A stretch of 64,000 nucleotides of DNA from Bryum argenteum (Eukaryota > Streptophyta > Bryopsida > Bryales > Bryaceae), in assembly GCA_037043015.1 (NCBI GenBank), contig CM073328.1:2839409-2903408 (forward strand), in the 5' to 3' direction. Positions 27,722-46,010 of this stretch are shown piece after piece (position 1 is the first letter of the stretch; each line of letters opens with the position of its first letter). The translations under genes and the position numbers were made by a program. The notes below the pieces were generated by a model that was not told the origin of the DNA, did not search any database, and saw only the letters and a program-made list of their open reading frames with translations.

Positions 27722-27983
27722 GGAGTAGTGTCACCACGACCACAAAGTAGTAGTGTCACCACGAACAAGTAGCACACCACGACCACAAAGTAGTAGTGTC
27801 ACCACGAACAAGTAGCACACCACGAACAAGTAGCACACCACGAACAAGTAGCACACCACGAACAAGTAGCACACCACGAACAAGTAGCACACCACGAACA
27901 AGTAGCACACCACGAACAAGTAGCACACCACGAACAAGTAGCACACCACGAAGCAGCACACCACGAAGCAGCACACCACGAAG
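27722..27983. repeat. 18-bp minisatellite, target of the large transposon
   Basis: The unit aacaagtagcacaccacg repeats about nine times at 27809-27955, preceded by variants with ccacaaagtagtagtgtca and followed by shortened aagcagcacaccacg units. The period is a multiple of three, so one frame gives (TSSTPR)n and the opposite strand (LVRGVL)n; neither looks like a gene. A related piece, accacgaagtagcacatcac, lies at 46002 on the far side of the 18 kb element, so the transposon inserted into this array. Confidence 0.9.
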
Positions 27984-28024
27984 GGAACGTAGCTACCGTG
28001 TGAGCGGAGAGCGGTGAGCGGTGA
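27984..28024 (+). repeat. Left terminal inverted repeat of the 18 kb element
   Basis: ggaacgtagctacc followed by the conserved 27-bp core at 27998-28024, which has a gagcggtgagcggtga-like internal direct repeat. Such subterminal direct repeats could be transposase-binding sites. Confidence 0.8.
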
Positions 28025-28463
28025 GCGTTGAGCCATCAAGTTTCAGAAATTTGAGCGGTGAATTGGTATTTTTAGCAAAAAAATTTCTAAAAATAATATT
28101 TTACTATTTTTCTGGAATATTCTCAAGAATATTCGAATATTCTTGACTTATAACCGTGGTTTTGAGTTCCTAAACCCGTGGAGATAAGGCTAAAATTTCT
28201 GAAATTTGGTAGAGTTAAACCACGTTTTCAAACGTTAAGAGACATTTACAAATTTAACAGAGTAGGCTAGTATATCATAACTTTGAAATCGGAAGTCGAA
28301 GTTGTATAGCAGTTCATAAATTTTTGTAAATAGGGATACATTTATTGACTTTTGTAAAACGCTGAAATCAAAATAAATAACGTGTGAAACACACGATTAC
28401 AGGGATAACATGTAGAATGGGTAGATGTGGATGTTGGTTTACGTAATGTGACCTTGAGGTAGT

Positions 28464-31400
28464 CTACTCGCTAACTTGGTCTAGGATTCCCCGCTCTAGA
28501 ATGGTTTTCACCTCGTTGAAACTGAGGGTGGGCGCGTGGATGAAGAGGTCTCTATCAATATCAAATTTGCATACCAATACCAACACGAAGTATAGGTGCT
28601 TGCAATGTCTATACGGTTCGCCTTTTCGTCCTAACTTAGTCATCGTTTTTTTGAACACTGGGCAAGAACACTCAGGGTTCTCACTTAGAGATAGTTTATA
28701 GATAGACTCTGAATCCGACTCCAAAGCAACGATACATCCAAAACCAGGTTGTGGTATCATAGTCACCTCGAGTATTTTTGCCTCCATGGCACGAGCTGAG
28801 TCAATGTTCTTCATGTGCTTCGAAGTCACACCTTGATGCGTCGAAGAACTTTAGACTTGCGTGATTTGGGGGTGTCTGATCGGCCTTGTCCGGAACAGGG
28901 AATATGTGACAAGTCTCTCGGTGGCGCGAAGTATTGAATGTGCGGTTGAGAGGAAGGCGTTCCTTTTGTGGGAGCCGAAAACCCGCATTCTCCAACGCCT
29001 CAATTTCATCCAGTGTGAGATTAGTCCCAATCTTCACGGGCCAAACTGAGGGAATAGGCGGTCGACCTTGTTTCCGAGAGAACGGCTCAATCCATTTACG
29101 ACGACTGCCCTTCACACAACGCTCAATGTCGTCTGGACAAACGAAAAACTGATCAGTTTTTTTTGGACCCTCTTGAGGACGCTGCCATACTCCGGTGTAA
29201 GTTGGAGCTGCGGTCGCCTTTCCGTTTTGGACAATGCGGGATTCGCATTTCTTCCTGGTCTTAGCCATAATACCCCAACAAGCCTTGGATGAGGATTCAA
29301 CTCGATATTCGTTATTTTGGGAGATTTTCAATCTCCCGATTTAATGCAGTTTAGTTCGAGTCGAGCTAAACTGCATTTTCTCAAAATCATGGAATTTTCC
29401 TGATATAATGAATATCGTGTTATTCCTTCAAACGAGCAATGTGCCATAGACGCTCATTCACCCTCGTCTCTTGGATAGCAATGACGCGCTGAATACTAGG
29501 TCCAGGAGAAGAGGACGGCTCCAGCGGTTGCTCTTGAACTTCATCTTCTTCGTGGATAGGACTGAGATTCTCGGCAAGAGCCCGTGTGACTCTTCTCCCT
29601 ATTCGAGGACGTGAGTAGCTCACGGTGTCAGGTCGATGAGTTTCATCTTCAAAGACCAATGGGAACATCGACCTTACGTTTCCTGGAACCAAAGATTTCG
29701 GCCCCCTCCAGTGGGGGCGTCACGCGTCTGATAAGCTTCGCTTGGGAAGTCCATAATGACCTTGTTGAGGCAAGATGGATTGCCGGATCGATTAGCACGA
29801 CGTTGAGCGGTATAGAGACGTTGACGAAGTTCTTCTACGGATGGTCCAGAACCACTTGCACCGTCCTTGTTAAACTGATGGTAGCCGACGACTTGGAGGA
29901 AGGCTCGAACGTAATCGTCAACTGTTGCGACGTAGAGATCTCTACCCTTATTGCCAGACGCTTGCAGTCACTTGTTATGAATTGACTCCGCAAGATTACA
30001 AGAAGGCATCTCTGCGAGTTCTTCTGCCGAATATTTTTTTTCCTGGAATGTACAAACGTATTAGGCCTTTATCCATAACTTAAAATTGTATTTAATTCAT
30101 ATTCACAGTATATAAATCCACATAAAAATTAACTAATACTATATAAAAAAGAACTGCTAATTTCTTTGGTTCTCTCAGAACATTACAAAAGCAACAGTAG
30201 AGCATTAAAACAGCAAAACTATGGCACAGAAAGTGTACACTTACTAATTCCATAAATCCACCCCATTGTCTGTATCTGAAGTGCCAGTACGCAAGCCAAT
30301 GACCCAAGTGTTCTAACCCAACTTCGGAGGTGGCCTTCGAAGATGCCCACCACGCTCTAATAGCCCAATATCGGGTCTCAGCTTCTTCCATGGTGCGCGC
30401 ATCCTTGTACTGCTTACAGAGAATCCGGTGTTGGCCTTGCAATTCGGGCACAATGTATTGTTTTGTATGTTTCTCAAGAGACTGCGTCCAATGGAAATAA
30501 CATGTGCGTTCGCGGCCTTCCATGGGGACAACAAGGTTTCCAAAGCCGTAGATGATGCGCACTGCGTTCCAGTTGGCTTGAGCACTATCAGCCATAAATC
30601 CTTGGAACTGCGGCATGGGTACTCCGTTCCTGGCCATCACATGATTAAGGTTCTTCCAGAAGACGAGTTGAGCATCTTTGTGCTCTGACTGAAAATCACA
30701 GCATGCAATGGTTAGAATGCGTTGGTAACGTGAGTCGTACACGTGGCGGGCCATAGTGGTCCAATCATGCTTAACGTTTGACATGGTCAAACATCATCCA
30801 GGCGTGGGCGAGATTTCCTCCAGTCGCATACGGCGAACTGATCAACACCGCTACGGGACCGACCTCCGACATTTTGAATATGAAGACTTTCTCGGATTCG
30901 TCGCCTTGGCCAGGGAACATGTTGCGTTGCACATATGCCCAGTTGCTGAGACCCCTGAGCTTTGTGATCCCATCGAGAATGCCATATCTACGCAAGTACT
31001 TGAAAGTGTAGATACGATTGCGCATCTTTGGAGAGTTTAACTCTTTGCATTGTTCAAAGACTCGTTTCTAGTCAAGAGAAAGATTGCCGGTTTCGGGGTC
31101 ACCTTCACACGGAGAAGTAAGTTACCTAACAGTCTTTTGCTTTGGTTTCCATAACTATTTTGGAAACGGTTGCTTGAGGGTTACGGTCAACATGCTCTTC
31201 TAGTAACTCATCTATTTGTTTTCTTACACATCTATAATCTCCAACTTTGACAGGGTGTTCGTGCGTTCCTATATGGACACATGCACGCTCTTGACAGTCT
31301 TCTCCAAGTACGTAAAAGATTTTCGCAGAACAAGGCGCAACACAAACAGGAGGTTGTTTGCAAAGCTTACAGACCAACGTCGAGGTGGGCGGGGGCGATC

Positions 31401-31620
31401 CGCCTACTGGGAAGGGGTCTTTCGTAATGCCTTCAAACTCCACATCGTTCACTCCAGCGACTCGGTCAGGTCGTTGCAAGAAGTCGCAGTTTGGGTTGTG
31501 GCACTGTAGATGTCCTACACAGTTCGAGTATCGGAAAGACAAGCCTTGCGTATTGCTGATGTTGGTGGTCATCGTCCTAGTCCACACATGACCGTCATAC
31601 CGTTTATCCATCCCCTCCAT
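28464..31620 (-). pseudogene. MULE transposase with SWIM zinc finger, multiply broken
   Basis: In transcription order: a cysteine-rich N-terminus (CVGHLQCHNPNCDFLQR, CKLCKQPPVC, then ACVHIGTHEHPV; 31620-31126); after a probable intron KRVFEQCKELNSPK and MRNRIYTFKYLRRYG; the MULE core with TIACCDFQSEHKDAQ, GFMADSAQANWNAV and CYFHWTQSLEKH; NLAESIHNK and LYVATVDDYVRAF (about 29990-29920); DETHRPDTVSYSRP; and a SWIM finger CSCPVF...HCKHLYFVL (about 28680-28590). MULE transposases cut and paste DNA in the nucleus. Breaks: frame change near 30780, in-frame TGA at 29968-29970, frame changes near 29700 and 28830. The family call is firm; this copy looks inactive. A basic RKRKVD near 29690 may be a nuclear signal. 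Confidence 0.82.
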
Positions 31621-32270
31621 TGTGAACCCGCGAAACGGTTCACTCTAGCGGGAATACGTTCCTCGCAAAGTTTAGCGCGTATTTATCAAGTTTCCATGGT
31701 TTAATTAGACTTTTTAGCTCATTTCGTAGATTCACGGAATACCCATGGTCTCATAGGAGGTTTTGGCACAAGCGGCCGCTCTTGCTCTAATTGATACCAA
31801 ATTAGTACTTTTGATAAACGCCAATATATTAAACGGCGAGTTTTTAGTATGTTTTAGCGATTACGTATTCCTAAGTAGAGGTCGGTTTGCCCCATTTTTT
31901 CCCTTACCTTCTACAAAACCCCTATACGAGGTGGGGTGCCTTTATCTAGCCCAATGGGTTAGGAAAAACTATGGATGGAAGTCCGTCCAACTGGACGGAT
32001 GAAATCCGCCCAATTGGACGGATGAAGCTTTTTGCTTCAACCTCCCTGGATCAGCCAGGGAGGAGGGAGAGTGAGGAGAGAAGCCGTTAGGCTAGTTTTG
32101 TGTGTGTGTGCATTTTTTGGTGGGAGTTTTTTTTGTGTGGAGATTCAAGGTTTTTGAGTGGGAGAGTGTGTGAAGAGATTATGCGTGGGAAGTGAGATCT
32201 AGAATGTTGGGTGGTGGCATTCTCTGGGAAAGATCGTTGTGTGTAGGGTTTGTGTGAGAAGAAGCAATCG
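31621..32270. other. Spacer within the 18 kb element
   Basis: No gene. Notable is ccaactggacggatgaaat followed by gcccaattggacggatgaag at about 31986-32026, a short direct duplication of ggacggatgaa with an inverted character. A gt-rich stretch lies at 32095-32180. Confidence 0.5.
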
Positions 32271-33265
32271 TGAGCAAGGAGTGCCAACAGATCCGCAGCG
32301 GGAAGGAAGCCAGCTACGGCAACCCAGCCCCGACGGCGACGGCCAGCTCCATTCCAGCCTCGAACTTGCTTGCATTTCGATTTTAGTCGGTTGCTTGCGC
32401 ATTTTCGCTTGCGTATTCTTTTGATCGGTTCATTCTAGCTGATTTCTTACTGTATCACGCCACCTTTCCATTAGCTGATTGTTCTATTCGCATTCCGGGT
32501 TTACTGGACCAGTTAAGAAAAGCTCGATCGGTGGCATCGTCACCGACATCGAAGCGGATCCAACCCAGAAGATCCGGTTGGAGCGGACCGCCCGGCATCG
32601 ACAACACCGACAATGGTCGGAACCGGCGGCGTGCGTGCGGACTGCGGGGCGATTCTGGGCCAGGCAGACGACGCGACATCGCGACGGATCTCTGGCGAGC
32701 AGCGGCACTAGATCGAAGCAAGCAAAGCGCCATCGAGAGAGCTGGCAGATCGGTGGAATCGGCGAAGTGCCGTTGACAGAGCCGGCGGTCGGCCGGAGCA
32801 CCAGATCGACATCGACGAGCAGGGAGTGGCGGAGTCAGCGACGAACAGAGTCACGGCGACGGAGCTCGGAGGGCGAGCAGGAGCGCTGAACGGCGGACCA
32901 GCATCATCGACTGGAGCGCGCCGACAGGATTGGTGGCGGCGAGGGCGCGGACACGGCCACGAGCAGAGGACGCCGGAGGCCACCGCCACCGCTCCGCTCC
33001 ACGGATCATCACCACAAAGAACGTGATCATCAATAGCGCCCGACCCGCCAAAGCCCGGCAGCGGCAATGGGAGGAGACGACCACGGCGGTATCGGAGACG
33101 CAGTCAATCGACACGGCCGCGGAGGATCCAGCGCCGGCGATGAGTACGTGAGCACGAAGACGGGGGAAGATCCCGCACCACGTGGGTTCGGAGCAGCCCC
33201 GACGGCGCAGTAGCGACAGCCCGGCGAAGGAGAGCCGCGGCAGCAACAGCAGCCATGTCCCCTCC
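32270..33265. other. GC-rich island inside the transposon
   Basis: About 1 kb of clearly higher GC than its surroundings, open in several frames on both strands (plus-strand 32479-32889, minus-strand 32851-33246 among others). None of the translations resembles a known domain; they are rich in R, S, A and G as expected from GC-rich DNA. It could be captured host sequence, a CpG-rich promoter, or an untranslated exon. At 33245-33320 it changes abruptly back to ordinary composition. Confidence 0.55.
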
Positions 33266-33995
33266 CCGTGATATTACGGAGGGTAGACAGGGTGCTAATA
33301 TAGAGGGAGCCCCCCTCCTCCTTCATTGTTTGTGTTGCTTTATGGTTGGTTGTAGAATGCTTTGATAGGAATGTGTGGACCTCTATTTTGAAAAAAAAAT
33401 GGCAAAACTAATTGCCAAAAAATTGATTGTTTGTTGTTGTTTGTGATTCATGTTATCTTATGTGTGTAATGGTTGTCTAGTTGAATGAATAAGCTTGCTG
33501 GAATGTTAGGTGTGTAATTAGGGTGCTCCGTGTGTAAAGGGTAGTGCGGAAGCTGCGCCAAATTTGGGCTGAAATTATAAAAGATAGGTTAAAAATTCGG
33601 GGATTTGTAATCGGTGCGGAAGCGCTGCCCAATATTTCCCAATTAAACCTAAATTGTGTTAGGAGTGGTGAATTGCATATTTAATGGATTGTTAGCACTC
33701 ATATGTCAATTAGGGTGCTTAGGATTGAGGTAGAAGGTGTTTAGATGTGAATTGCAACCTCTTCCAACCCTAATTTGTGTGCTGGACCTCTTGGTCCATA
33801 TGCGTTTTGGAGGCCTTAAGTGTTCATTTTGGTCGTTTTTGTGCCCACAATTGAGCCCTAGGCCCTTGGTGGTCAAATGAGGGCTATTTGAACCTCCTAG
33901 GTATGCTTTGGGAGACTCACTTCACTACTGGAGTTACATGTTTGGGATTAAATTGGGGCTTGATTGAATGATTGTGCTTCTATGTTAAAGTCAAA
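33266..33995. other. Spacer within the 18 kb element
   Basis: No gene recognised. Repeated phrases such as gtgcggaag.gctgcc and aattagggtgct suggest old local duplication. Confidence 0.45.
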
Positions 33996-34862
33996 TTAGT
34001 CATTGCATGCATGTATGAAGTTTAGTGTCCATTGCTTGGAAGGATTGTTTTGTGTGCGCCCATCCCCACGGCCCACTTGTGAGTTAGAAACCGGAACACC
34101 GGGATTTGACCTCACATCCATGGACTTCGCAACCTTGTGAGTTGCAGACGGAAGAGTGGGCGGAAAGATGAAGAGTACATCGCCATTGAATGACGGAGGC
34201 AAGAAAGATACGTTGACAGTGCGGATGGTTTTGAAATCAATTTTTTTGAGGAGAGTCTTACTACTGGGCATTCTAGCGAGATTGTAGAGGGATGGAAGGA
34301 TTTTTTTGGGTTTTACAATTTGCGACGAAACTAAAGGAAGGGTGGCTCTTAAATTGTTATCCCTAACAGGAGGTTGCAATGGAATATCAGTGGACAGACG
34401 ACATGGTTGCAGAGGAGACTTCTTCTCGTCTTCTGATGAATCCGATATGTGAATGGTGACTTCCAGACCAGGTTCAACTTTGACACGAGCAAGAGTTGGA
34501 GCAACCGTGGAAATAGTAGAAGAACTACGTGGGGTTAGGAGAACTGTTGAGGCGTTCATGACGGACTCTGTCAAGCCGTAGAGGCGATACTTTCCAGCTC
34601 TAAGCTTCCAGATTGTAGTATTATTCTCTAGGATGATTGGATCTACGACCATGGAGTACTGAACAAGATTAGTATTAGGTTCTAGAACTTCTCTCTCTAA
34701 CCACAGTGAAGATGCATCGTAGCCGAATCGAATTCCAAGCCACGATGCAGTTATCTCTACGACACCTTCAAGCCCTACGGACATGCAAATGGGAACAAGT
34801 GCTCCCTGTCACACAATTTCAACGATGTCTGCGGGAGTGGGTTCAATGGAGGAGGAAGCCAT
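33996..34862 (-). pseudogene. Unrecognised protein with SUMO-interaction-like motif, in-frame stop
   Basis: The best start is ATG at about 34862 (MASSSIEPTPADIVEIV). The frame hits TGA at 34811-34813, then continues unbroken to 33996 for another 275 residues (GLEGVVEITASWLGIRFGYD, LYGLTESV). The codon could be a mutated CGA. An alternative is that translation starts at the downstream ATG (34784), giving 262 residues. Near the middle, VTIHISDSSEDE has a hydrophobic core followed by acidic serines, the form of a SUMO-interaction motif or CK2 site cluster. The C-terminal half is basic and proline/serine rich. No known fold recognised. It is transcribed opposite to the methyltransferase-like gene. 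Confidence 0.5.
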
Positions 34863-35373
34863 GATGTGCGAGAGGACCAACGAGCATCGACAGTGGATGT
34901 GAGAAAAGGATACAAACTAGGTATGATGCAGTTTATAAGTGGAATTTGGTAGTAGGAAGACGTAATAAAGTAAATAATGTTAGGAGAGTGAATAATTCAG
35001 AAAATTACCATAATGAAGAGTAAATATTGTATACCATTAGGCAATTGTAATTAGTGTCATTAATGTGCAAGTGTTGACAGTCTCAAAATTGGAAAAGTGA
35101 CGGCGGCCGTCACTGTCAGAGCATTTGTATGCAAATTCAAAAAATAGATTAGCATCTCATGTCAGAGACTGTCACATTTGGCAAACCATGAGCCGTCATA
35201 GTTTTTGCGATAATTTATGATGATCTGCGGAAATTAGGTTAGTGGGCGGCTTGTAAACTTTGTTTAAATAGGAGTAGGACGACGAGATAGTCCTTTTCTT
35301 TGTTCGCTTACTTGGTGTTGGTAACGTATTGAGACGGTACAATTTGTGAGCTTTTGTTTAGAGTCTGGACGTT
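34863..35373. promoter_or_regulatory. Intergenic space between divergent cargo genes
   Basis: About 510 bp between the minus-strand frame starting at 34862 and the plus-strand frame starting at 35374. It holds gtgacggcggccgtcact near 35097, a perfect 18-bp palindrome, and repeated cagagactgtcac / tcactgtcagag phrases. A shared bidirectional promoter is plausible. Confidence 0.4.
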
Positions 35374-36271
35374 ATGGACGCGGTGAGCTTGGGGTTTGAG
35401 AGATGCAATGAGAGTGTGCCTAAGAGGAAGAAAAAGAGAGGGGGTATTCGTTTTAGTAATACCAAAGCGCGCAAACGAAGTGTATTGCGAAAGGTGGGTG
35501 CGTCTAGGTCGAGTGGAGATGAGGGAGGCCCTGCTGGTTTTGATCTGAACGATGATGAAGTCGGGCCCCAGTATAGGCGGAATCTGAAGATGCGGTTGAT
35601 CAATCTTGACACAGTGATCGAGGTTAACGAGAAAGACAGTTTTGATGAAGAGAACGAGTTCAAGAGTTTTATAGAAGAGCAGGAGCGCGGTAGAAGTGAA
35701 TCGACATCTAGCGAATCTCTAAGTTATTACATAGGAGGTGATGAGGTTGCACAGATTCCGAGAACTGTGTGCGGTAGTATTCTTGACTTTTTGCCTTTAA
35801 GTCAATAGAATTTTTGTTTAACGAATTGAATGTTTGCATAATAGGGTGATGGCGAGGAAGGTCCGAAGGGGCGATGACATAGATGATATAGGTTATGACG
35901 ATACGGAGAAAGAATTGAAAACCGCTTCCCAAAACATGGAGCGGATGGACCGGAAGAAGAAGTTGGTAGATGATGAGGAAGATGATATTACAAGTGATCG
36001 CATTTTAGAGGAGGAGGTAAATGACATGACGTTTTTCTTAAATATCATGAAGGAGTCTGGACACATATTAGCATTCACCTATATAGGATAAATATTGGAT
36101 TATGATTTTTAGGCACGCAAGTGTAGATTTGGGTCTAGAATTGGTGATGAAGCACAACTACAGAGTTCACGTTTGTTTTGTTGTAACTCGTATAAATCAC
36201 AGAAATGTGGCCAGCAGCGACTAAGTACGGTGTTGAGGATAACCGCAAATAACAATATAGTGTGTGGGTGA
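35374..36271 (+). CDS. Unrecognised charged nuclear-type protein (spliced, tentative)
   Basis: Exon 1 begins MDAVSLGFERC, has a strong basic cluster (KRKKKRGG, KARKRSVLRK) and then an acidic region (NEKDSFDEENEFKSFIEE). A second exon around 35845-36019 reads VMARKVRRGDDIDDIGYDD and DDEEDDITSDRILEEE, ending at a donor GAG|GTAAAT. A third, after ttttag at about 36112, reads ARKCRFGSRIGDEAQ and ends at a stop near 36271. The first intron boundaries are not resolved. The mix of basic and acidic tracts suggests a nuclear protein; I recognise no domain. It belongs to the plus-strand cargo of the 18 kb element. Confidence 0.42.
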
Positions 36272-36289
36272 AGTTATCATGGAGTGTAT

Positions 36290-36948
36290 AATATACGAGT
36301 CATTTATACAATATGTCTAGTCACCCCTTTCGATGACATGTACTCGGGCGCCTTCTTTATACCGCTTTCGCCAGAAGAATACTCGGTACCCTCCTATATT
36401 ATTCTTTGCTCCACTACCACGGATACCCCAACCCACTTATCGTGTACCGCTCCCCCTACAACAATACCAAGTATCCCTATATATTATGCATAACGCCATC
36501 GCACTCAAGTATCCCAAATCGCTTTACTAGGATACACCTTATCCCCTTCTAATACTATGTCCCCATATTATCATTCTCGCTTCTACACCTAGGATACCAT
36601 GTACCACCCGAATTAACCAAATCCAACATGTACCTTCGTTACCCTTTACCCCTACCCCGATACCACTCGTCTCTCTACTCTGATATCCTATTCTGTCCAT
36701 TAGAAACTTGCCTCGCCTACATTATTCTACGCTCGATGACGCCACTACCTCTGATACCCGGTTCCCATGTTGGATACCCTGGTGCATGCCCTCGATACCC
36801 TGGTACATGCCTTCGATACCCGCTTCCACATGCGCTGCGATACCTGATTCCATATGCGCTGCAATACCCGTTAATCGAAGGCGCTGCGATACCCGTTAGA
36901 AACATGCGTTGCGATACCCGTTCCAATGTAGTGATACCCGGTTATCAA
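36290..36948. repeat. Low-complexity gatacccg-rich repeat tract
   Basis: Degenerate repeats of gataccc/gatacccg with intervening gctgcgatacc and ggtacatgcc units, densest at 36765-36945. Open frames over it (rich in Y, P, R) are compositional. Confidence 0.75.
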
Positions 36949-39249
36949 CAATGATAAACCGACGCTGGCTCAAGCATCCAGCCCTTTCCATCGGCGCTGT
37001 TCGACGCGGCTCTGAAGTCCAGTCACCTCCGAGATTGTCGAAGATGCTTGACTCCTTCGAGAAGAGCCTGCGGCGCGGCAGGGCCCCGAAATCCAAGCAT
37101 CCAACTGCCGTCGAAACCCTAGCCGAATCTAGCAGCTTTCCGCCGCCGAGCCACGTAGAAGAATATGGATGTCCTGAATGTCAAGGATTGCGATGGTCCT
37201 GGAGGAGTGAGCTTGTTTTCTAAACCGTGGTAACTAATTCGATGTTCAGTTTCGTGGGAGCGAAGGAGCTTCAGTTGTAGAAGCCAACGAAGTCATGGCG
37301 AGCCTTAAGCAGATGGAGGAGACAGTGGTCCAAAGAGAAGAGATCAGGGAGATGAATCCAGAGAATGTGAGTGCCGATTCACAGTCAAGCATCTTTTCTG
37401 AGTTCTATAGGGAATACGCTCTCTGTTATGCTCCAGAAATGTTGGTGAAGACTCGTGAAGAAAAGGAGGCGTGGTTTGCGAGGGGCTTCAAGGTAAGATT
37501 CAGTCCTTCATCATGTACTCGATTTGGAAGTTCAGTTGTTAGAGATTCGACGAATTTGCATGTGATTCCGCTTCCAGAACAGAATAGGTCGGTGGCGTCG
37601 TTTTGACAGAGAGGTCTCTTTCAGAGGTCTGTGCCGATGAAGGCTCGGCGACTCGAACAAATTAATGTGTCGGTGCCGTCGTTTTAACTGAGGATCCGGT
37701 TTCAGAGGTCTGTGCCGATGAAGGCTCATGGGCGGCCTGAGGCACACAATCTACTGCTGGTTCAAGCTATGCACTCCCTCAGGGCCCTCTCCTGGTTGCA
37801 TCTGCACTCCCAACATGAAGCCGATGACGGCTCAGTTCCATCGTGGGCGGGCCTGAGGCTCGGGAAGGACGTGTTTTGGTTTTTTTTTAAATTTTATTCT
37901 TTTGATTCATCCTTGGGGTCGTTTGCATTGATACAAAAATGTGATCTACGTCGGTGCCGTCGTTTTGACTGAGGATCCGGTTTCAGAGGTCTGTGCCGAT
38001 GAAGGCTCGTGGGCGGCCTGAGGCACACAATTGCTGCTGGGTCAAGCTGTGCACTCCCTCAGGGCCCTCTCCTCGGTGCATCTGCACTCCCAACATGAAG
38101 CCGATGACGGCTCAGTTCCATCGTGGGCGGGCCTGAGGCTCACTCTGCATTGCAGCTGGATGCAGATAGAAGAAGGAGAAGTGACGGGAGAGGCTCGCTT
38201 GCATGTCCTCGGTGATGGGGTGGCCTCTGCCTTTGCTCGGATTGCTGGAAACCTCCCCAGACTTGCGTCAACGCAAGTCTGGGAGGTGAAGGACGTGTTT
38301 TGGTTTTTTCTTAAATTTTAATCTTTTGATTCTTACCCGGGGTCGTTTGCATTGATACAAAAATGAAATATACGTCGGTGCCGTCGTTTTGACTTAGGAT
38401 CCGGTTTCAGAGGTCTGTGCCGATGAAGGCTCGTGGGCGGCCTGAGGCACACAATTGCTGCTGGGTCAAGCTGTGCACTCCCTCAGGGCCCTCTCCTTGG
38501 TGCATCTGCACTCCCAACATGAAGCCGATGACGGCTCAGTTCCATCGTGGGCGGGCCTGAGGCTCTCTCTGCATTGCAGCTGGATGCAGATAGAAGAAGG
38601 AGAAGTGACGGGAGGGGGTCGCTTGCATGTCCTCGGTGATGGGGTGGCCTCTGCCTTTGCTCGGATTGCTGGAAACCTCCCCAGACTTGCGTCGACGCAA
38701 GTCTGGGAGGTGAAGGACGTGTTTTGGTTTTTTCTTAAATTTTATTCTTTTGATTCTTCCGCGGGGTCGTTTGCATTGATACGTTTGCTTTAATGCGTCG
38801 GACTTCCTGGAAATGCAATTTTGTGCTAAAAGACTGGGGCTCCCGGAGTTCTTGTATGCTTAGATTTGCATTATCCTTTTTTATATGTTTTACGAGAATT
38901 TATGTAGCTAAATGTTTTGTTGGTATGGCAGAATCATTGGAAGCATGCAAGACTTGTCGAAGAAGAAGAATCGGATGCGGATAGCGATCTATCCACATTG
39001 AGAGACCATGTGTTGGCTATAGTGGAGTCCCGTCGATTAGCCATAGCATTGTCTTCGATTCCGGAAACTCCACCTCTTGCCTCACCTGTCCGTCACACAT
39101 CACGTGGTGACGTAGATCGGGTTGCACGAGAGGTCAACATGCGAATTAAGAAGAATGAGGCCAAAGCACTACGTATTCAAGTGAAAGAATTAGCTAGACT
39201 TGCACCCAGACGTTCTCCGCAACTTGCCGCAAAGTTGCATACTCCTTAG
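36949..39249 (+). CDS. Unrecognised cargo protein, three exons, long repeat-filled intron
   Basis: Probable start MINRRWLKHPALSIG. Exon 1 holds MLDSFEKSLRRGRAPKSKHP and EEYGCPECQGLRW. Exon 2 (about 37250-37491) reads MASLKQMEETVVQREEIREM, then SEFYREYALCYAPEM, ending ARGFK at a good donor AAG|GTAAGA. Exon 3 starts after gtatggcag at 38931 (NHWKHARLVEEEESDADSD) and runs to 39249 (VNMRIKKNEAKALRIQVKEL). The join GFK-NHWKHARLVEEEE is in phase. The ~1.4 kb intron is filled by the 424-bp tandem array. The exon 1/2 junction is uncertain. A helical, charged protein with a basic nuclear signal; no family recognised. The next gene starts 140 bp downstream on the same strand. Confidence 0.5.
37580..38790. 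repeat. 424-bp tandem repeat array in an intron
   Basis: Units start at tcggtgccgtcgttttgact: 37951 and 38375 (424 bp apart), with an internally deleted copy from about 37669 and a fragment at 37588. Each complete unit contains a short hairpin (cccagacttgcgt ... acgcaagtctggg) and a ccatcgtgggcgggcctgag block. Copies differ by only a few bases, so the array is young. The open frames of about 100 codons within it are shared by all copies and are not supported as genes. Confidence 0.88.
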
Positions 39250-39388
39250 TTGTATCGTCACATTATATGATATGTATATCATATACTTATTTGCAAAAGG
39301 AACATGTATTACTTTCTATATATTATTGTTTATTTTACACTATTTTATTCTGTTCTGTTGTGTTGTATTTGGTTTCGTGCATTGCCAG

Positions 39389-42300
39389 ATGATCATAGCT
39401 GAAGCCCATCTCATTCAAGATGAAGATGCCAACTCGCTTCTTTGAAATCGTGCACAATCTGTACCTTCCAACGGAGATGAACTCATACTTGATGGTGTGA
39501 GAAGTATTGAAGACCTCGGAACTAGAGATCTGCAAGAGAGTCCTTCGGAAAGTGATCGCCAACCTCTGGAAGGCGATTGCAATGCAGTTTCATGTGAAAA
39601 TCCTCTCGAAGCTGCAGATATTCCATTACCGTCCCAGGACAATGACGTCCAACAATCCCTCTCAGATGATGAAGAAACTACACTGCCAGAAGGTGTCAAT
39701 GTTGGAATCATTCACATGCCTCAACATCTTTAGAACAAAGACCCCGATTGGAGTGCGAACGAGATGCGAATGCTCCACAAGAGTGATTCGATTGCGATCA
39801 TCAACAGGTTACGCTTCAAACCTGTTAAGAAGTCTCGTATGCTAATTCCACTCTGCCGTCTCGTTTGTTATTCGAAGGTTCGCCTGATCTTTGAATAAGA
39901 CGTCAGGAAACTTGAGAATGAGTTCAACAAAGGATACCGCGAAGGCGATCGGGTAATGTACGTGTCGCCCTTTGATAGGAAAGGCCGAGAAAAAATTGTT
40001 GACACTCAAGATGAATTGTGGATGAACCCTCTTTGGAAAGCCGCAAACGAGGAGTTTGAGAGTACGCTGCGGTCCGATCCAGATCTTCATGACCTCAGCG
40101 ACAAATACTTTTATGTTTACGAAGGCAACCACCGTGTTACGGCGTGGATGCGTCATATCGAGAGGTACCACAAGAATGATCCCTTGTGGTACATTTCGGT
40201 TGACTGCATCGTTCTCGATGCCCGAGGAGAAAGCAATCTCCTTCTCGATGCTATGAACAACATTAACTGGTAAGTAAACGTTTCATTTCCAAATTTTATT
40301 TCATTTTATGGTTTTCTCATATTCAATTCTTCTTATCTTTTGTTCTTTTTTGTAGGTCCACTGAACATGATCATGTCGAGGACAGTTTATGTGCCAAACT
40401 GCAACGCATGAGGAAGTTTGGGAAATTAAAACTCGAAGATTTCAAGGACCTAATTTCTCCAGAGGATTACAGGATCTGTAAGAACGCGAAAGCAAAAAAG
40501 GAGACATGGTATCGTGTCACTATAGACGTTTTTATAAAATTTCTATACGCGGTACGTTCTCTATATATGTGCTTGACTCTGTTCCTTCATTTTTATTTAC
40601 AACAACTTCTGACTTGTGTTCTCATTTGGTATTCAGAGGAGGTTAGCGAAAGCATCAGACGATGCTGAAGCTACATATTACGCCACGGTTCCAAAAGACA
40701 AGCAAACAGGACCGGGCGTATGGAGTGCTATGGATAACGCCATCAAGGCTGAGATCAAGTCAATTCGTGGGAAGAATTTTGACAAGATGGTCGCTGTGGC
40801 GAATAACAAGCTTGGGAAAGTTTTTGCGAAAGAGGTAAATGTGGCTACTTGCTTCGATTTCATATCATTGTTTCCCACTTTGTATTCTATTGCTCTAACC
40901 AAAATTGTGATTCTCATGAGCAGATTTATTCGCATTACAGCCAAAACTTGAAGCCCGATATGACAATCGATCGCTTACACATGGTAGCCACCACTAATGT
41001 TCACTTTGATTTCAAAGCAAAGTGGCTGCAATGGTCGAACTCACCAAACGAAGTTCGGCGAACGGTTCGTTTTCCAGAAGAACGCCCGATGAAAGATAGA
41101 GCTTTGGTTGCATTTCTCCATCGGGCTTCATTTTGGGCACAGGTGATTTGAAATTTCGTTCCATGATTACAATAGTTGAGTTTCTCTGTTCCTTTACATT
41201 CTAACATGTTTCTTGTATTTTCAGCTAGAGCAATCACTTGAAAGTGAAATGCAGTATCTCGTTGAAAACGAGAACCTCAACATTGAGTGGTCTAGTGTTG
41301 TCCTAAAGCCATCCGCGTACATCGAGAAGTGGAGGTTGCTCTTATGGGACAAGGCATTCAACAACTATCTTGGTCCTAATGCAAGCCCAAAGTTCATCAA
41401 AGGCTCAGATCTTCAAAAGATTACCGGAGGCAAAGCCACAATTAAGCGACTTTTATTCCGGTATGTTTCTAATTTACTCTTTAATATTAATAAAATTGGT
41501 ACAACTTGTTTAATCTTCAGTATTTGATTTGTTCACATTTTTGTAGGTACTTAAAACAAGAGCTCGTTGCGAAGGGAGCATTAGCTTCGTTCTCCATTCC
41601 AATGGAGTTCGAGGACATTACAGTCACGAATGATCCCCGCAGGTTTTTCTCCACAGCCCAACAAGAGCGGTTTACCAACTCACAATTGACGACTGGTGGA
41701 TGGTTTCTGGAGTGCGACAACAACTACGTGCACAAGGAGGAGAAGCATCTTCTTCAGGGTCTCGCTTCCAACCCAGCTGACTCTGCACCAATGGACATTG
41801 ACGACGATGACGATGAGGACCTCTCCATTTTACCAGTCGCACCTGATCCATTGTCTTCTCCGTCTTCACCAATTGCAGTGCCCAAGTCCCGTGCAAATAG
41901 GAAGCGACGGAACGCTGTTGCAGAGCCTGTTGTAGATCTTGAGCAAGAATCCGAAGAAAATGTTCCCCTCTCAGAAGACATTGCTGCACCTGAAGATGCT
42001 GATCTGACTCAGGCTTCAGCGGGAGCCGCAATCAATACTATTCGTCGCGGTGGAAGATTGACTCAACTTTCTACAGGTGGACTTACGAATGCTGGGTCCC
42101 CACCTCAATCATTCACCGTCGACCACAACTCTCAGCAGTCCCCACGTCGCCACAGCCAGGCAATATTCGCCAGACGCCCACTTCCTAAACCCAATCACAT
42201 TGGTAGCAGCTCGTCGTCGAAAATATCTGTCACACTGCCAATGTATCTGGAGAAGGGGAACATTGGAGATTTGGTTCACCAGTCCTCGAAGACTGCAAAA

Positions 42301-43737
42301 TGGGATTCGCAAATCCTAGATATCGTCGAGCACATCAAGAAGGTATTATTTTATACATTTGTCATTCATAATCTCTTATATTATGTTTTGTACTTGTAAA
42401 TATATTAGCCACAATCTAATTTTTAATTTGTATCTCAGATTGGAAAAGATCGTAAGTACCCGTGTTCGGCGATGGAGTTTGAACCCAAGCATCCAGGCAT
42501 TGATCTCATTTTTGTAGATGCTCCCGAGAACCTGCCTGTACCGGGTGTGTCTCCTACAGAAATTCCGTCCTGGAACCGGCGTGACAAAACCTACTTTGAG
42601 AGCCTCTTCGTGTTTGCCGCGTATCATTTGACGGACGTTGGAGCCATTCTTCTGATGCATCCAAAATGTCGTAGAATCGAGCGTACTCTCGATGCTGAGT
42701 CCCATACATATAGTTTTCGTCTTGTTCGAGACTGGTGGAGATATAATCCCCTCCCTATGGCGTCCACCGTACCCAAACCGAAAGAGGTACGAATCAGATT
42801 CTGTGTTTCAATTTCACAATTCCTAGTAATTGCGTTCTATGCATCTATATTAATGTATCTATACTTGTGTTTTGCAGACTCACTGCTTCCATATCAAAGT
42901 GTATGTTCGCAAAGAGTATGTTTCGAAGTTCCAAACTCGGCAAGTGGCGCATGCATACGCGGGTGTGGCAATCGTACCTGATGACGAAGACCACCTCTGT
43001 AACTTTGCAGAGAAGGAAACATTGCGTTATCGTCCGGACGGTACGCCATGGCGAGGCTCACGAGAGAAGGATCCCTCCTTCATTCAATGTTTCGTCGATT
43101 GTCTCACGGACGAGGGGGGTATAGTCTTTGACTGGAGCGCAAGTACAGGTATTGTTTCCGTAAACTCTACATTTGAATTTGTTTATACATTTTGCATTTC
43201 TAACGTGGGCTTCTGAATTTTTAGGTGCATCTGTGATAGCTTGCGCGCGCTCCAACCGACACCTCATTGCTATGGAGTCAGACGAAGAAATCTTTGATGT
43301 TGTTCTAGCGGATTACAAGAATGGTCCTCCCGGTGATGAAGAAAGTGGAGAATCGGCCCCACCCGCAGATTATGACTCTGACGAACCAGTCGTGAAGAAG
43401 CCACGAAAATTCATTGGTGCGTAATTTCATCTTGTATTCTCTTCATCGATTTAAAAAAACACACTTACATATCGGTAGGACTGACTTTCTTTGCAATTTT
43501 AGGATCGCAGGTCTAAAAGAGCGATTGACTCGCAACGCTCATCTCTACAAGAGCCCTCCATCCAAATTCACTCTACCATCGTACGCCGAGCGTCTTGCTC
43601 AAGAGTTTGTTCAAGCTCCATCTCCCATTTTGTCTGACACTCCACGTCGACGTTATAGCAAGAGTGTGCTTAAGTTTATAGACTTTGAGGCAGATCAATG
43701 TGATCAGCACTTTAATGGTACTACACCGTCTGCGTAG
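39389..43737 (+). CDS. ParB-like plus N6/N4-DNA-methyltransferase-like protein (ten exons)
   Basis: Exons by GT-AG signals: 39389-40269, 40356-40551, 40637-40834, 40924-41142, 41225-41460, 41547-42342, 42439-42786, 42878-43148, 43225-43420, 43503-43737. They sum to 3576 bp, an exact multiple of three. The first exon has a ParB-type box (YVYEGNHRVTAWM, about 40110-40150). The middle is a long helical region, then an acidic linker (PMDIDDDDDEDLS) and a basic SRANRKRR. Near the end comes DLIFVDAPEN, in the position of the DPPY motif, then YHLTDVGAILLMHPK; then DWSASTGASVIACARSNRHL and MESDEEIFD, matching the motif I region of beta-class DNA methyltransferases (motif IV before motif I). Exon 1 carries in-frame TGA 39443, TAG 39731 and TAA 39896. 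Translation may begin downstream of these, or the copy is dead. Substrate and activity are unknown. Confidence 0.72.
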
Positions 43738-43958
43738 TTTGTGATTTGTTTTCCGATAGGTACTAGACATGGTAGCGCCATACATTTGTAGTTTTCCATG
43801 ATCTATTACTTATATACTATCTATATGTGTTTTTCAATATACACGGTTTTATATTTTTATAAGTCGGTAATATGTATTAAAAAAATTTCAGCACATTCAA
43901 GCCAACTCTCAATCCAAGTGTGAGTCCTGGCCAAACAACTACTATAACTAGCAATCAA
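43738..43958. terminator. Convergent 3' ends of the methyltransferase-like and ADD genes
   Basis: About 220 bp of AT-rich DNA between two stop codons of converging genes. It must hold both polyadenylation regions; aataaa-like signals are not clear-cut. Confidence 0.4.
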
Positions 43959-44531
43959 CTAGTCGTAGTTGGAATCACTCGCAGAATCACTACTGCTGCG
44001 ATCACCAGCTTCTGAAGTGAATTCCACGAAATCCTCCCAAATGGTCTGCAGAGGCACAATCTCGTACTTGTTGCAGCTGAAGCACCCCCAATTTTTGACC
44101 GTCATGTCCTTCAGGTAGTCGTCTCCCTTGTTCCGTGCGATACACGCTGCACACCACGCCTTGTTACAATAATCACACGGGATCACAAACTGATTTCCCC
44201 CACACCAATTGCATTACTCATCATCGTACTGGGCGTTCTTCGTGAATACAACGTCGTCCAACACAAGTTTGCACGAAATGCATATGCCAACACCGAGACG
44301 AGGATGCTCCAACAAACAAGCACGGATTTTTTTAGCTCCACAAGCGGTGCAGGAATACAAGTACAAAGGATCAAAATCGCCCGAATGCCCCGCCATTTGT
44401 TCCACAACAGTGCAAGAGTGAGAAGTTTCAAAAAAGAGATGGCCAACACAATGCATTGAGATGCTGGCTTCCTCCTCCTCCGTTTTTGTATGCAAGGAGA
44501 GAACTCTGGATTTCCCATCCAACCTCACCAA
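43959..44531 (-). pseudogene. ADD-domain (ATRX/DNMT3-type) histone-reader gene, in-frame stop
   Basis: ADD domains read the unmodified histone H3 tail and recruit DNA-methylation or remodelling enzymes. The frame has a GATA-like finger, CTAC...CISC (SCTACGAKKIRACLLEHP, then GVGICISC). After an in-frame TAA at 44214-44216 it continues with the PHD part: CNWCGG, PCDYCNKAWCAACIARN, WGCFSCNK. Known ADD proteins have Asp-Glu-Gln-Cys where this has Asp-Glu-stop-Cys, so the stop probably replaced a CAA Gln codon. The tail is acidic and serine rich (DRSSSDSASDSNYD). About 190 codons in all; the first Met is uncertain and an upstream exon is possible. It is convergent with the methyltransferase-like gene, inside the right end of the element. 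Confidence 0.75.
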
Positions 44532-44539
44532 TATGATTA

Positions 44540-45055
44540 CCCAAAACCGGCAGTGCAGTCAGATTGGCACACCGGCACTGCCGTCAGAATCGGCACACCG
44601 ACACGGACATTTTTGGACATTTTTTTTCAATTTTTGTCAGCTTCTGAACTCTACACCGGCACCGACATTCCAACGAATTAGAAATCGACACAAAAATGAC
44701 AATGGACGTGAGTTCTCATGAACACCATCATGCTCGGTGCTCATGCTCATGCTCAATGTCCGTGCTCAATGTCGGTGCTCATGCACATGCTCATGCTCAA
44801 TGTCGGTGCTCATGCTCATGCTCAATCACGGCACTTTTCTGACATTCTCGTGAGTAATCAAATCACTACAGCATCCTTTTCTCCCATCTCTACTAGCACA
44901 TCACAATGAGCACCGACAATTCATAGCTTCATGGAATGTATTCACCCCTTAACCGACACTCCATATGACACAACCCATCCAATCTCATGACGTCCAACAT
45001 CATAATACATAAGCACCGACATTGAGCATGAGCATGAGCACCGACATCTGAAGGT
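44540..45055. repeat. Minisatellite region with direct and inverted copies
   Basis: tgctcatgctcaatgtcggt-type units repeat at 44728-44826. The inverse (agcaccgacattgagcatga) lies at 45013-45050. A cggcacaccgacac / caccggcactgccgtca unit repeats at 44555-44610. The inverted copies could fold back on each other. Confidence 0.75.
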
Positions 45056-45165
45056 CAAAATATTTCTAATAGTGTGATATTATGGAATTTTTGATGATAT
45101 TACAGAAATTTGTTGATATAATGGAAGATGTGGATGATATTACAAAACATGCCATTTAAGTATCT
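45056..45165. mobile_element. Fragment related to the 24.5 kb MITE
   Basis: gaaggtcaaaat followed by atagtgtgatattatggaat and gatgatattacagaaatttg matches the reverse complement of about 24610-24725 with few differences. The terminal repeats of that element are not evident here. Confidence 0.7.
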
Positions 45166-45960
45166 CAAAACGGTGTAATGTAAGCCATGCATGCCTTTAA
45201 CGGTGACGTCAGCCCTAATTTTTATGTAACTCCTTCAACTCCAATATCAATGCATCGATGTATGTAAATACTAAACTCATTGTACACTAAAAGTTTTTTG
45301 TTTCCATGGGAGTGATTGAAGCTTGCCAATGTTGGTTGGGGCTATAGTCCAGTAATTGTATAGCTCAGGATAGCTGCTATAGGACGCGGTGCAACGCTCA
45401 AACGAGGCCGAGGAGAATCGAACTCGGACCACTACAATACCACGTGAATGTCTTTCTGTACACCTTACAAGGTGACACAGGAAGACGACCTGTAGTTCTA
45501 AATTTCAGATTATATGAACTGAAGCATCTACCTGTAATTCTGACAGGTTTAATAGGAAATTGATGACGTCAGCCCTAATTAGTCTCTAAATCTTAATATT
45601 GATAAAGTAAACTTATTGATTACCTAAAGGGTCATCCCAAATTATGGTTTAGATTTTGTATATGATTATAATTGTATTGGTTACACATGATGATGCCAGC
45701 CCATATTTTAATTAACTTTTATTTAAACTTGCAAATGTGGATAATTTATGAAATATTGTATAACCTCAATACCATAAAAATAAATGGATAAAGGACCTAT
45801 ACCCACGGTGTTGGGTTTTTTTTTTGCCTAAAAACGACCATGTCAAAAATTCAGAACCACCCATTCCATGGTTATAGGGCTATTAACTTTTAATTTTTTT
45901 TTCAATGAGTGGTAATAGGGTCTTAATCTTTCATGAAAAAAAAAAAAAAAATTCTGTCAA
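45166..45960. other. Right subterminal region of the 18 kb element
   Basis: No gene. The phrase gacgtcagccctaatt occurs at 45206 and 45564 with a weaker third copy near 45690 (gatgccagcccatattttaa), so old ~350 and ~130 bp repeats are likely. On the minus strand around 45380-45435, ggtccgagttcgattctcct resembles a tRNA B box and may mark a SINE; a full tRNA fold is not seen. A run of about 16 A lies at 45937-45953. Confidence 0.45.
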
Positions 45961-46001
45961 TCACCGCTCACCGCTCTCCGCTCACACCCGTGCATTCCCC
46001 C
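45961..46001 (-). repeat. Right terminal inverted repeat of the 18 kb element
   Basis: 45961-45987 is the exact reverse complement of 27998-28024. The outer 14 bp (cccgtgcattcccc) pair only loosely with the left end. Followed by accacgaag at 46002-46010. Confidence 0.8.
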
Positions 46002-46010
46002 ACCACGAAG

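Follow-up and report, generated by a model that had tools for sequence, protein, structure and literature searches.

Our analysis supports the existence, in the moss Bryum argenteum, of a lineage of giant Mutator-like elements (MULEs) equipped with their own conserved set of DNA-binding and chromatin-reading genes. A decayed 18-kb copy lies in the stretch analysed here, 64,000 nucleotides of contig CM073328.1 (assembly GCA_037043015.1, positions 2,839,409 to 2,903,408; hereafter the window), for which the original prediction, made from the letters alone, had proposed such a lineage. The cargo includes a gene that joins a ParB-like part to a part resembling N4/N6 DNA methyltransferases, and in many copies a stand-alone ADD protein of the ATRX type. 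New here is a 24-bp palindrome with co-varying arms, located ahead of the ParB/methyltransferase-like gene in every carrier scanned. Conserved cargo and an adjoining conserved palindrome suggest, without proving it, that the element may recognise itself.

A family of giant elements moved whole

The window copy (W) occupies positions 27983-46000, its ends being placed by comparison across copies. Its terminal inverted repeat (TIR) regions lie at 27983-28031 and 45961-46000 and contain the perfect 27-bp inverted repeat already noticed in the original prediction (arms 27998-28024 and 45961-45987, 27 nucleotides each, 100% complementary). Across the genome (258.8 Mb in 25 contigs), this 27-mer has 1083 matches with at most three mismatches and its reversed control none, which rules out a chance repeat; these and the other pattern counts given below take in decayed copies. 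The left-end query finds at least 40 scored matches, the window copy itself among them and the others at 92-99% identity; the right-end query finds at least 41, again with itself included, the others at 89-96% apart from one 37-base piece. Among the first 100 perfect TIR matches listed, 24 pairs of facing neighbours lie less than 70 kb apart and span 13.2-62.3 kb (median 19.5 kb; at most 26.1 kb in 18 pairs), and 52 of the 100 ends are unpaired under this rule. Sizes of 13-26 kb in 18 of 24 pairs, reaching 62 kb, support the proposed lineage of giant elements. As an aside, contig C1, with 17% of the genome, accounts for 50 of these 100 ends, an approximate share as the listing reaches C10; C1 is possibly a repeat-rich or a sex chromosome. 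Plant-type telomere repeats gave 953 pattern matches in this assembly (control 0).

Eighteen further copies were paired by eye from the end matches, eight of them fetched whole (A-H) and ten as ends only, giving 19 copies with both ends read once W is included. A perfect target-site duplication of 9-10 bp flanks 14 of the 19 (9 bp in 12, 9-10 bp in C5a and C7b), with one base of end ambiguity in the 9-bp duplications of W, F and C5b. The duplication is imperfect in one copy (C9b, 8 of 9) and lacking in four (B, C1a, C9c and H). Common flanks are found in H, C9b and C9c; on C9, at 6.1-6.3 Mb, three copies with identical flanks represent either a segmental duplication or repeated insertion into one repeat. 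The 9-bp direct repeat predicted for the window is present as CACCACGAA on the left (27974-27982) and, read at the edge, on the right (46001-46009), with 10 bp identical once the next G is included. An 18-bp minisatellite, CACCACGAACAAGTAGCA, occupies the insertion site (27757-27982). Because this left-flank minisatellite itself contains CACCACGAA, the repeat is weak evidence in the window copy alone, and the duplication was therefore judged on the other copies, where the rule is strong.

Empty sites complete this picture. The joined flanks of copy G (22.7 kb) gave 35 matches in all, of which two are its own flanks, one is partial and 32 are uninterrupted empty places with 88-99% identity. Those of copy E span the junction at nine places over about 180-200 bases (91-94%), further ones being shorter or weaker. 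Such paralogous empty sites imply precise insertion of whole giant elements: members of the family insert as a unit and were moved whole. The original prediction had looked to an empty site and to further copies elsewhere that agree in their TIRs, their cargo and the order of their genes; the copies were found, and paralogous empty sites answer for two members of the family, G and E.

Conserved cargo genes

Copies A-H were chosen for having both ends close to those of the window and are not a random sample; all eight carry the transposase, a gene that we call gene 2 and the ParB/methyltransferase-like gene in a common order. The ADD protein is additionally present in five of these eight TIR-fetched copies. 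Where the original prediction counted at least five other spliced genes beside the transposase, we found three: gene 2, the ParB/methyltransferase-like gene and the ADD gene.

A cargo 34-mer has 237 genomic matches and a transposase 40-mer 107 (at most three mismatches each; controls 0), figures that do not give a ratio of genes because the two words differ in conservation. Two of the cargo places, X and Y, were opened and revealed a subfamily with a different right end, itself matched 258 times (control 0). Both were picked for their cargo, and the left end of X lies outside the fetched stretch. The transposase of X is about 77% identical to that of H, and its cargo is free of stops, with one splice acceptor lost (AA). 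Copy Y has both TIRs, an ADD gene at its left end, gene 2 and the cargo gene with one stop, and retains only a remnant of the transposase; its duplication, GATATTTGT/GATATTCGT, agrees at 8 of 9 bases. A further locus, L052, has the order of Y (ADD, transposase remnant, palindromes, cargo), its ends and methyltransferase part lying beyond the fetched stretch. The conserved order thus runs from the transposase at the left (ADD in Y) through gene 2, the palindromes, the ParB/methyltransferase-like gene and sometimes ADD to the right TIR.

In the window, gene 2 extends over 35374-39249 on the plus strand, with three exons (about 35374-35754, 37268-37495 and 38932-39249) that appear to form one gene. 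Searched by tblastn in the eleven carriers W, A-H, X and Y, exons 1 and 3 are found in all eleven and exon 2 in seven at the cut-off.

The ParB/methyltransferase-like gene lies at 39389-43737 on the plus strand. As had been proposed, it is one spliced gene, of at least ten exons, which in the window copy carry three stops: 39389-40269, 40356-40551, 40637-40834, 40924-41142, 41225-41460, 41547-42342, 42439-42786, 42878-43148, 43225-43416 and 43511-43737, the last with the stop codon. It was modelled on copy G as nine in-frame exons with GT-AG borders plus the last exon. Copy A keeps an open frame through these nine exons, over 1077 codons and with every GT-AG border intact. Stops are found in W (3), B (41), C (15), D (5), E (3), F (2), G (1) and H (30), a good number of them stemming from frameshifts, and a few exon borders are lost in these copies.

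The ParB-like assignment comes from the PHROG ParB-like partition family, matched by five of five variants over the EGNHR region (best E 0.003). For the C-terminal part, a PHROG DNA methyltransferase family is matched at E 2.5e-5 by the Ceratodon protein P0001 and at 2e-4 by copy X. Pfam N6_N4_Mtase stays below its cut-off (0.0024-0.045), and two NCBIfam models, CcrM (0.087) and a DNA methyltransferase (0.042), far under theirs. In the Protein Data Bank (PDB), the methyltransferase alignment finds a dynein light chain best (E 0.008), which we regard as a chance match; DNA methyltransferases follow with E values of 0.2 or worse. The motifs of the fold follow one another in permuted order, and motif I reads FDWSASTG against FDPFxGSG in the phage enzyme compared. 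The catalytic DPPY is replaced by DAPE in W, A, D, E, F, G, X and three Ceratodon proteins and by DASE in Y (B, C and H, being frameshifted, were left out); four metagenomic relatives covering the site have DAPE, DAPS, DAPD or DVPE. With DPPY lost, the domain is probably non-catalytic or altered and DNA modification doubtful. The DNA-modification or chromatin-reading system of the original prediction is thereby narrowed to a conserved set of DNA-binding and chromatin-reading genes: the modification part is not supported, no homologue read having DPPY.

Among the 8000 best candidates scored, the search with the protein returned three matches, all from Ceratodon purpureus (51-53% identity over 70% of the query); a search with the methyltransferase-like part gave 15 further matches, nearly all on short contigs. 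One of these, the fragment P0137, and a transposase relative, P0062, are each placed on a contig 257,896 bases long, probably one and the same. A viral origin was rejected, as three scans of viral contigs turned up nothing related to the transposase or to the ParB part; the single methyltransferase they matched, weakly (33% over 52 residues), is an ordinary DPPY enzyme.

The predicted ADD histone reader also held, as an ATRX-type protein of 145 codons in a single exon at 43959-44396 on the minus strand, interrupted in the window copy by one in-frame stop. The protein of copy D matches PDB 2lbm (ATRX) at E 5.3e-14 over about 108 residues, and Pfam ADD_ATRX is reached at 0.00062 and 0.00097, under the curated cut-off. 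It is present in W, B, D, E, F, G, Y and L052, with in-frame stops in W and E, and was not seen in X or at locus L053, both fetched only in part.

Selection and apparent exchange of modules

The ratio of nonsynonymous to synonymous divergence (dN/dS) of the ParB/methyltransferase-like gene is 0.133 overall among six copies (W, A, D, E, F and G). By part, it is 0.446 in the variable N-terminus, 0.049 in the ParB part (a rough value, since the mean dS of 1.56 is near saturation), 0.064 in the middle, 0.200 in the low-complexity part and 0.116 in the methyltransferase part. Pairwise values for all nine copies are 0.07-0.24; the introns differ by 15-45% and dS between copies reaches about 1. The transposase gives 0.17-0.27 in seven copies, with only 199 further codons of exon 1 counted and the end of that exon left out, and the ADD gene a mean of 0.24 in seven sequences, single pairs ranging from 0.07 to 0.98. 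As read from these substitution ratios, the cargo has been under purifying selection, and mere hitchhiking was rejected.

In bins of 500 bases, identity to the window copy is 87-99% at 28-31.5 kb, 71-89% at 39-41.5 kb and 87-98% at 43.5-46 kb; the region at 36-39 kb is mostly unalignable between copies. Trees of single blocks disagree, the ParB block joining X with W and G, and the methyltransferase block joining X with Y, W with A and B with G. The elements therefore seem to exchange modules, with homogeneous ends and transposase around a diverged ParB region.

A palindrome beside the cargo gene

A tandem array with a period of 424 bp (37864-38782, plus strand, found by repeat search) covers two copies of a parS-like palindrome in the window, CCCAGACTTGCGTCAACGCAAGTCTGGG at 38256-38283 and CCCAGACTTGCGTCGACGCAAGTCTGGG at 38680-38707, both recovered by inverted-repeat and motif searches. 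To our knowledge, this sequence is not a known parS. The inverted-repeat search detected palindromes of common design in W, A, B, C, E, F, G, H and X, and none at its threshold in D and Y. With up to four mismatches of 22 allowed, the 24-bp motif CAGMCTTKCGT-N2-ACGMAAGKCTG was then present at 46 sites in all eleven carriers, with 1-10 in each (three in Y); ten first-order shuffles gave 0-1 apiece. As the motif was drawn from the other nine carriers, D and Y alone are independent here. Nine of the eleven have several sites, mostly 230-550 bp apart. Of the 46, 44 lie between exon 1 of gene 2 (exon 2 where found) and its exon 3, shortly upstream of the ParB-like gene; of the two outlying sites, one falls in flanking sequence of B and the other in the region of the transposase intron of X. 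At the left flank of copy B (L012), the start falls at the centre of an X-like palindrome, a single case.

The arms change together. Across ten distinct palindrome sequences, 95.5% of cells pair, against 24-42% in slid controls, though selecting a palindrome in the first place biases this percentage. Eight cells are changed on both sides, against 2.9 in shuffles (standard deviation 1.2), and the co-variation score is 0.253 against 0.106, each reached by none of 500 shuffles.

Genome-wide, the palindrome has 700 forward and 688 reverse matches with at most one mismatch (control 0), which amounts to about 700 sites or somewhat more because most match in both orientations. Over C1:1-13.27 Mb, the perfect sites listed group into 15 clusters. 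Six of them have a listed cargo 34-mer no farther than 12 kb away, on the side and strand expected, against 0.33 by expectation and none on the other side; of the nine remaining clusters, two were opened (L052 and L053) and both have the cargo gene downstream. The class of palindrome follows the ParB block: AGACTTGC is found in W, G and X, AGCCTTGC in B and F, and an AGACTTTC-like class in A, C, D, E and Y (D and E deviating), H being mixed. Locus L052 has the palindrome class of X, and its cargo is nearer to X than to the other copy compared.

The transposase and the state of the window copy

A SWIM-like transposase of Mutator type, as noticed in the original prediction, is indeed inside the element, on the minus strand at 28464-34862. 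It consists of two exons (exon 2 at about 28464-30042, exon 1 at about 30245-31620 plus 34117-34862) and is broken by inserts, frameshifts and a stop. One insert is a short MITE-like hairpin at 29299-29421 with an imperfect inverted repeat of 61 nucleotides; the other, of 2.5 kb at 31621-34116, resembles a solo long terminal repeat and is named from its TG..CA ends and 5-bp duplication TCCAT, not from homology. Both are absent from A-H. A SWIM-like CxC...CxH end, conserved D residues and an RTCxFHW motif were read by eye; Pfam SWIM scores 12.4-12.5 bits (cut-off 19.6). The transposase has 170 homologous matches, 120 of them listed, and one relative weakly matches Transposase_mut (E 0.034); a PDB search with the alignment gave no match. 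In copy X, the first exon lies inside an open frame of 751 codons. Assignment to the MULE superfamily is based on the duplications, the TIRs and the SWIM-like end.

A second tract of repeats and inverted repeats, seen in searches for both, is close to the right end (44717-45047). Taken as an intact element, the window copy finds no support: it is decayed, with a broken transposase and stops in its cargo genes.

What the cargo may do

We consider it an evenly balanced proposition that the cargo forms a self-recognition and anti-silencing chromatin module, comparable in its action to VANC, which has tandem repeats as targets in the VANDAL elements of Arabidopsis. We infer four steps: the ParB/methyltransferase-like protein would bind the palindrome as a dimer; binding would mark or open the element's own chromatin; the ADD protein would read the state of histone H3; and transposition would gain. 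Evasion or use of host silencing, as initially proposed, would, on the analogy of VANC, be our best-fitting guess. In a more specific and more tentative form, to which we give somewhat less than an even chance, a ParB-parS-like pair would have been taken over by a eukaryotic transposon. ParB/pseudo-methyltransferase and palindromes would then provide a sequence-specific mark of self and non-self, controlling chromatin, perhaps also pairing, together with the ATRX-type ADD, and groups of palindrome/ParB specificity would be exchanged as modules between subfamilies.

Several observations weigh against self-recognition by such a module. The ParB-like part has no match in Pfam ParB, NCBIfam or PDB and its sequence assignment is weak; a structure model of the Ceratodon protein P0001 was useless (predicted local distance difference test score, pLDDT, 28; predicted template modelling score, pTM, 0.18). 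The Pfam MULE profile matched none of 23 transposase relatives nor copies D, G and X. Copies D and E have a single palindrome each, and A, C and H, three of the first nine copies, lack ADD. Two of the five measures of co-variation are unremarkable: 3 pairs are changed on both sides (2.0 in comparison) and 5 further pair types occur (4.0 in comparison), values that 135 of 500 shuffles reach in either case. Linkage alone may explain why the palindrome class follows the ParB block.

The alternatives differ in how well they withstand the evidence. The palindrome may not be bound by the cargo at all and serve as a site for a host factor, a small-RNA hairpin or a replication origin, palindrome and gene being mere neighbours. 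Linkage would account for their shared ancestry and co-varying arms also fit a hairpin, but the palindrome is kept in eleven of eleven carriers though most of the surrounding sequence is unalignable, and a constant 2-bp centre suits a dimer site better than a loop; we regard this as unlikely. Quite unlikely, in our view, is a role in partition or synapsis, in which ParB-parS-like bridging would cluster copies or hold together the distant ends of a long element for transposition. The ParB-like profile match and the several palindromes, mostly 230-550 bp apart, in nine of eleven carriers would agree with it; however, the palindromes are internal and far from both ends, a histone reader would be superfluous, and no ParA-like gene was noticed among the genes described, no search having been aimed at ParA.

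An active enzyme, modifying adenine or cytosine of the element's DNA through the fused methyltransferase, seems improbable: the permuted motifs and the profile match of P0001 (E 2.5e-5) speak for it, but DPPY is changed in every copy, Ceratodon protein and metagenomic relative read, and motif I is FDWSASTG instead of FDPFxGSG. MULEs often capture gene fragments, according to the available parts of two papers (PMC6431247, PMC13317346), and the cargo could accordingly be host sequence hitchhiking as in Pack-MULEs. This is very hard to reconcile with a whole multi-exon gene that in copy A has 1077 open codons and GT-AG borders throughout, with a dN/dS of 0.13 overall at a dS of up to about 1 between copies, and with the persistence of the gene in Y, where only a transposase remnant is left, and probably in L052. 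A composite of unrelated nested elements sharing TIRs by chance is barely conceivable and was rejected, for other inserts do occur in copies but gene order is kept in eight of eight, duplications flank the elements and the empty sites are uninterrupted.

Comparison with known systems

No earlier description of the element was found in the openly licensed literature, which is no proof of novelty, and the available part of a survey of Mutator elements contains none of the moss words looked for. Polintons are likewise giant and cargo-bearing, with a transposase class that differs from the Mutator-like one. Starships and large CACTA elements, in the portions of the literature available, are alike in size and cargo and belong to other transposase classes.

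Within the Mutator-like elements, Pack-MULEs and KIU-type MULEs also contain sequence unrelated to the transposase. Pack-MULEs hold mostly captured fragments, as far as the accessible text describes them, whereas whole conserved genes are found here, and the accessible part of a review states that none of those of Jiang et al. 2004 exceeds a full-length element of 7 kb (PMC6431247). The Abermu MULEs of barley are Mutator elements with three open reading frames, one of them antisense and divergent; unlike in the present family, ParB, ADD and palindromes go unmentioned in the abstract (PMC9168764).

ParB-methyltransferase fusions occur in prokaryotes. Like these fusions and the ParB-parS systems, the cargo protein unites an EGNHR motif with a methyltransferase-like domain and has palindromes nearby; unlike them, it is eukaryotic, spliced and carried by a transposon, its catalytic motif is changed, and no ParA was noticed, none having been searched for. 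The ADD protein matches that of ATRX (E 5.3e-14) and differs from the ADD of ATRX and DNMT3 in being a stand-alone protein of 145 residues without helicase or methyltransferase.

VANC is the nearest tested precedent for the proposed mechanism. In the available part of the survey of Mutator elements, a 9-bp duplication and a SWIM domain are given for the VANDAL group, and the targets of VANC are described, in the accessible text, as non-coding tandem repeats, some in introns and others upstream (PMC5735166). On these partial sources, VANDAL and the present family share the Mutator-like type, the 9-bp duplication and an additional protein encoded by the element; the SWIM-like end read by eye and the repeats proposed as targets here would be further likenesses. 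The family described here is set apart by its ParB/methyltransferase-like and ADD cargo, its clear palindrome and its size of 13-62 kb, and the VANC domains DUF1985 and DUF287 had no Pfam match in the cargo protein.

If the proposed reading is true, Mutator-like elements reach tens of kilobases with strongly conserved chromatin cargo beyond flowering plants. Two questions then arise: what brought a ParB-like protein and a histone reader onto one element, and why the cargo persists in a copy that has lost its transposase (Y). The palindrome makes the idea directly testable, offering one protein, one 24-bp site and natural variants on both sides. Beside VANC, the family would then provide a second, independent case of sequence-specific recognition encoded by the element itself.

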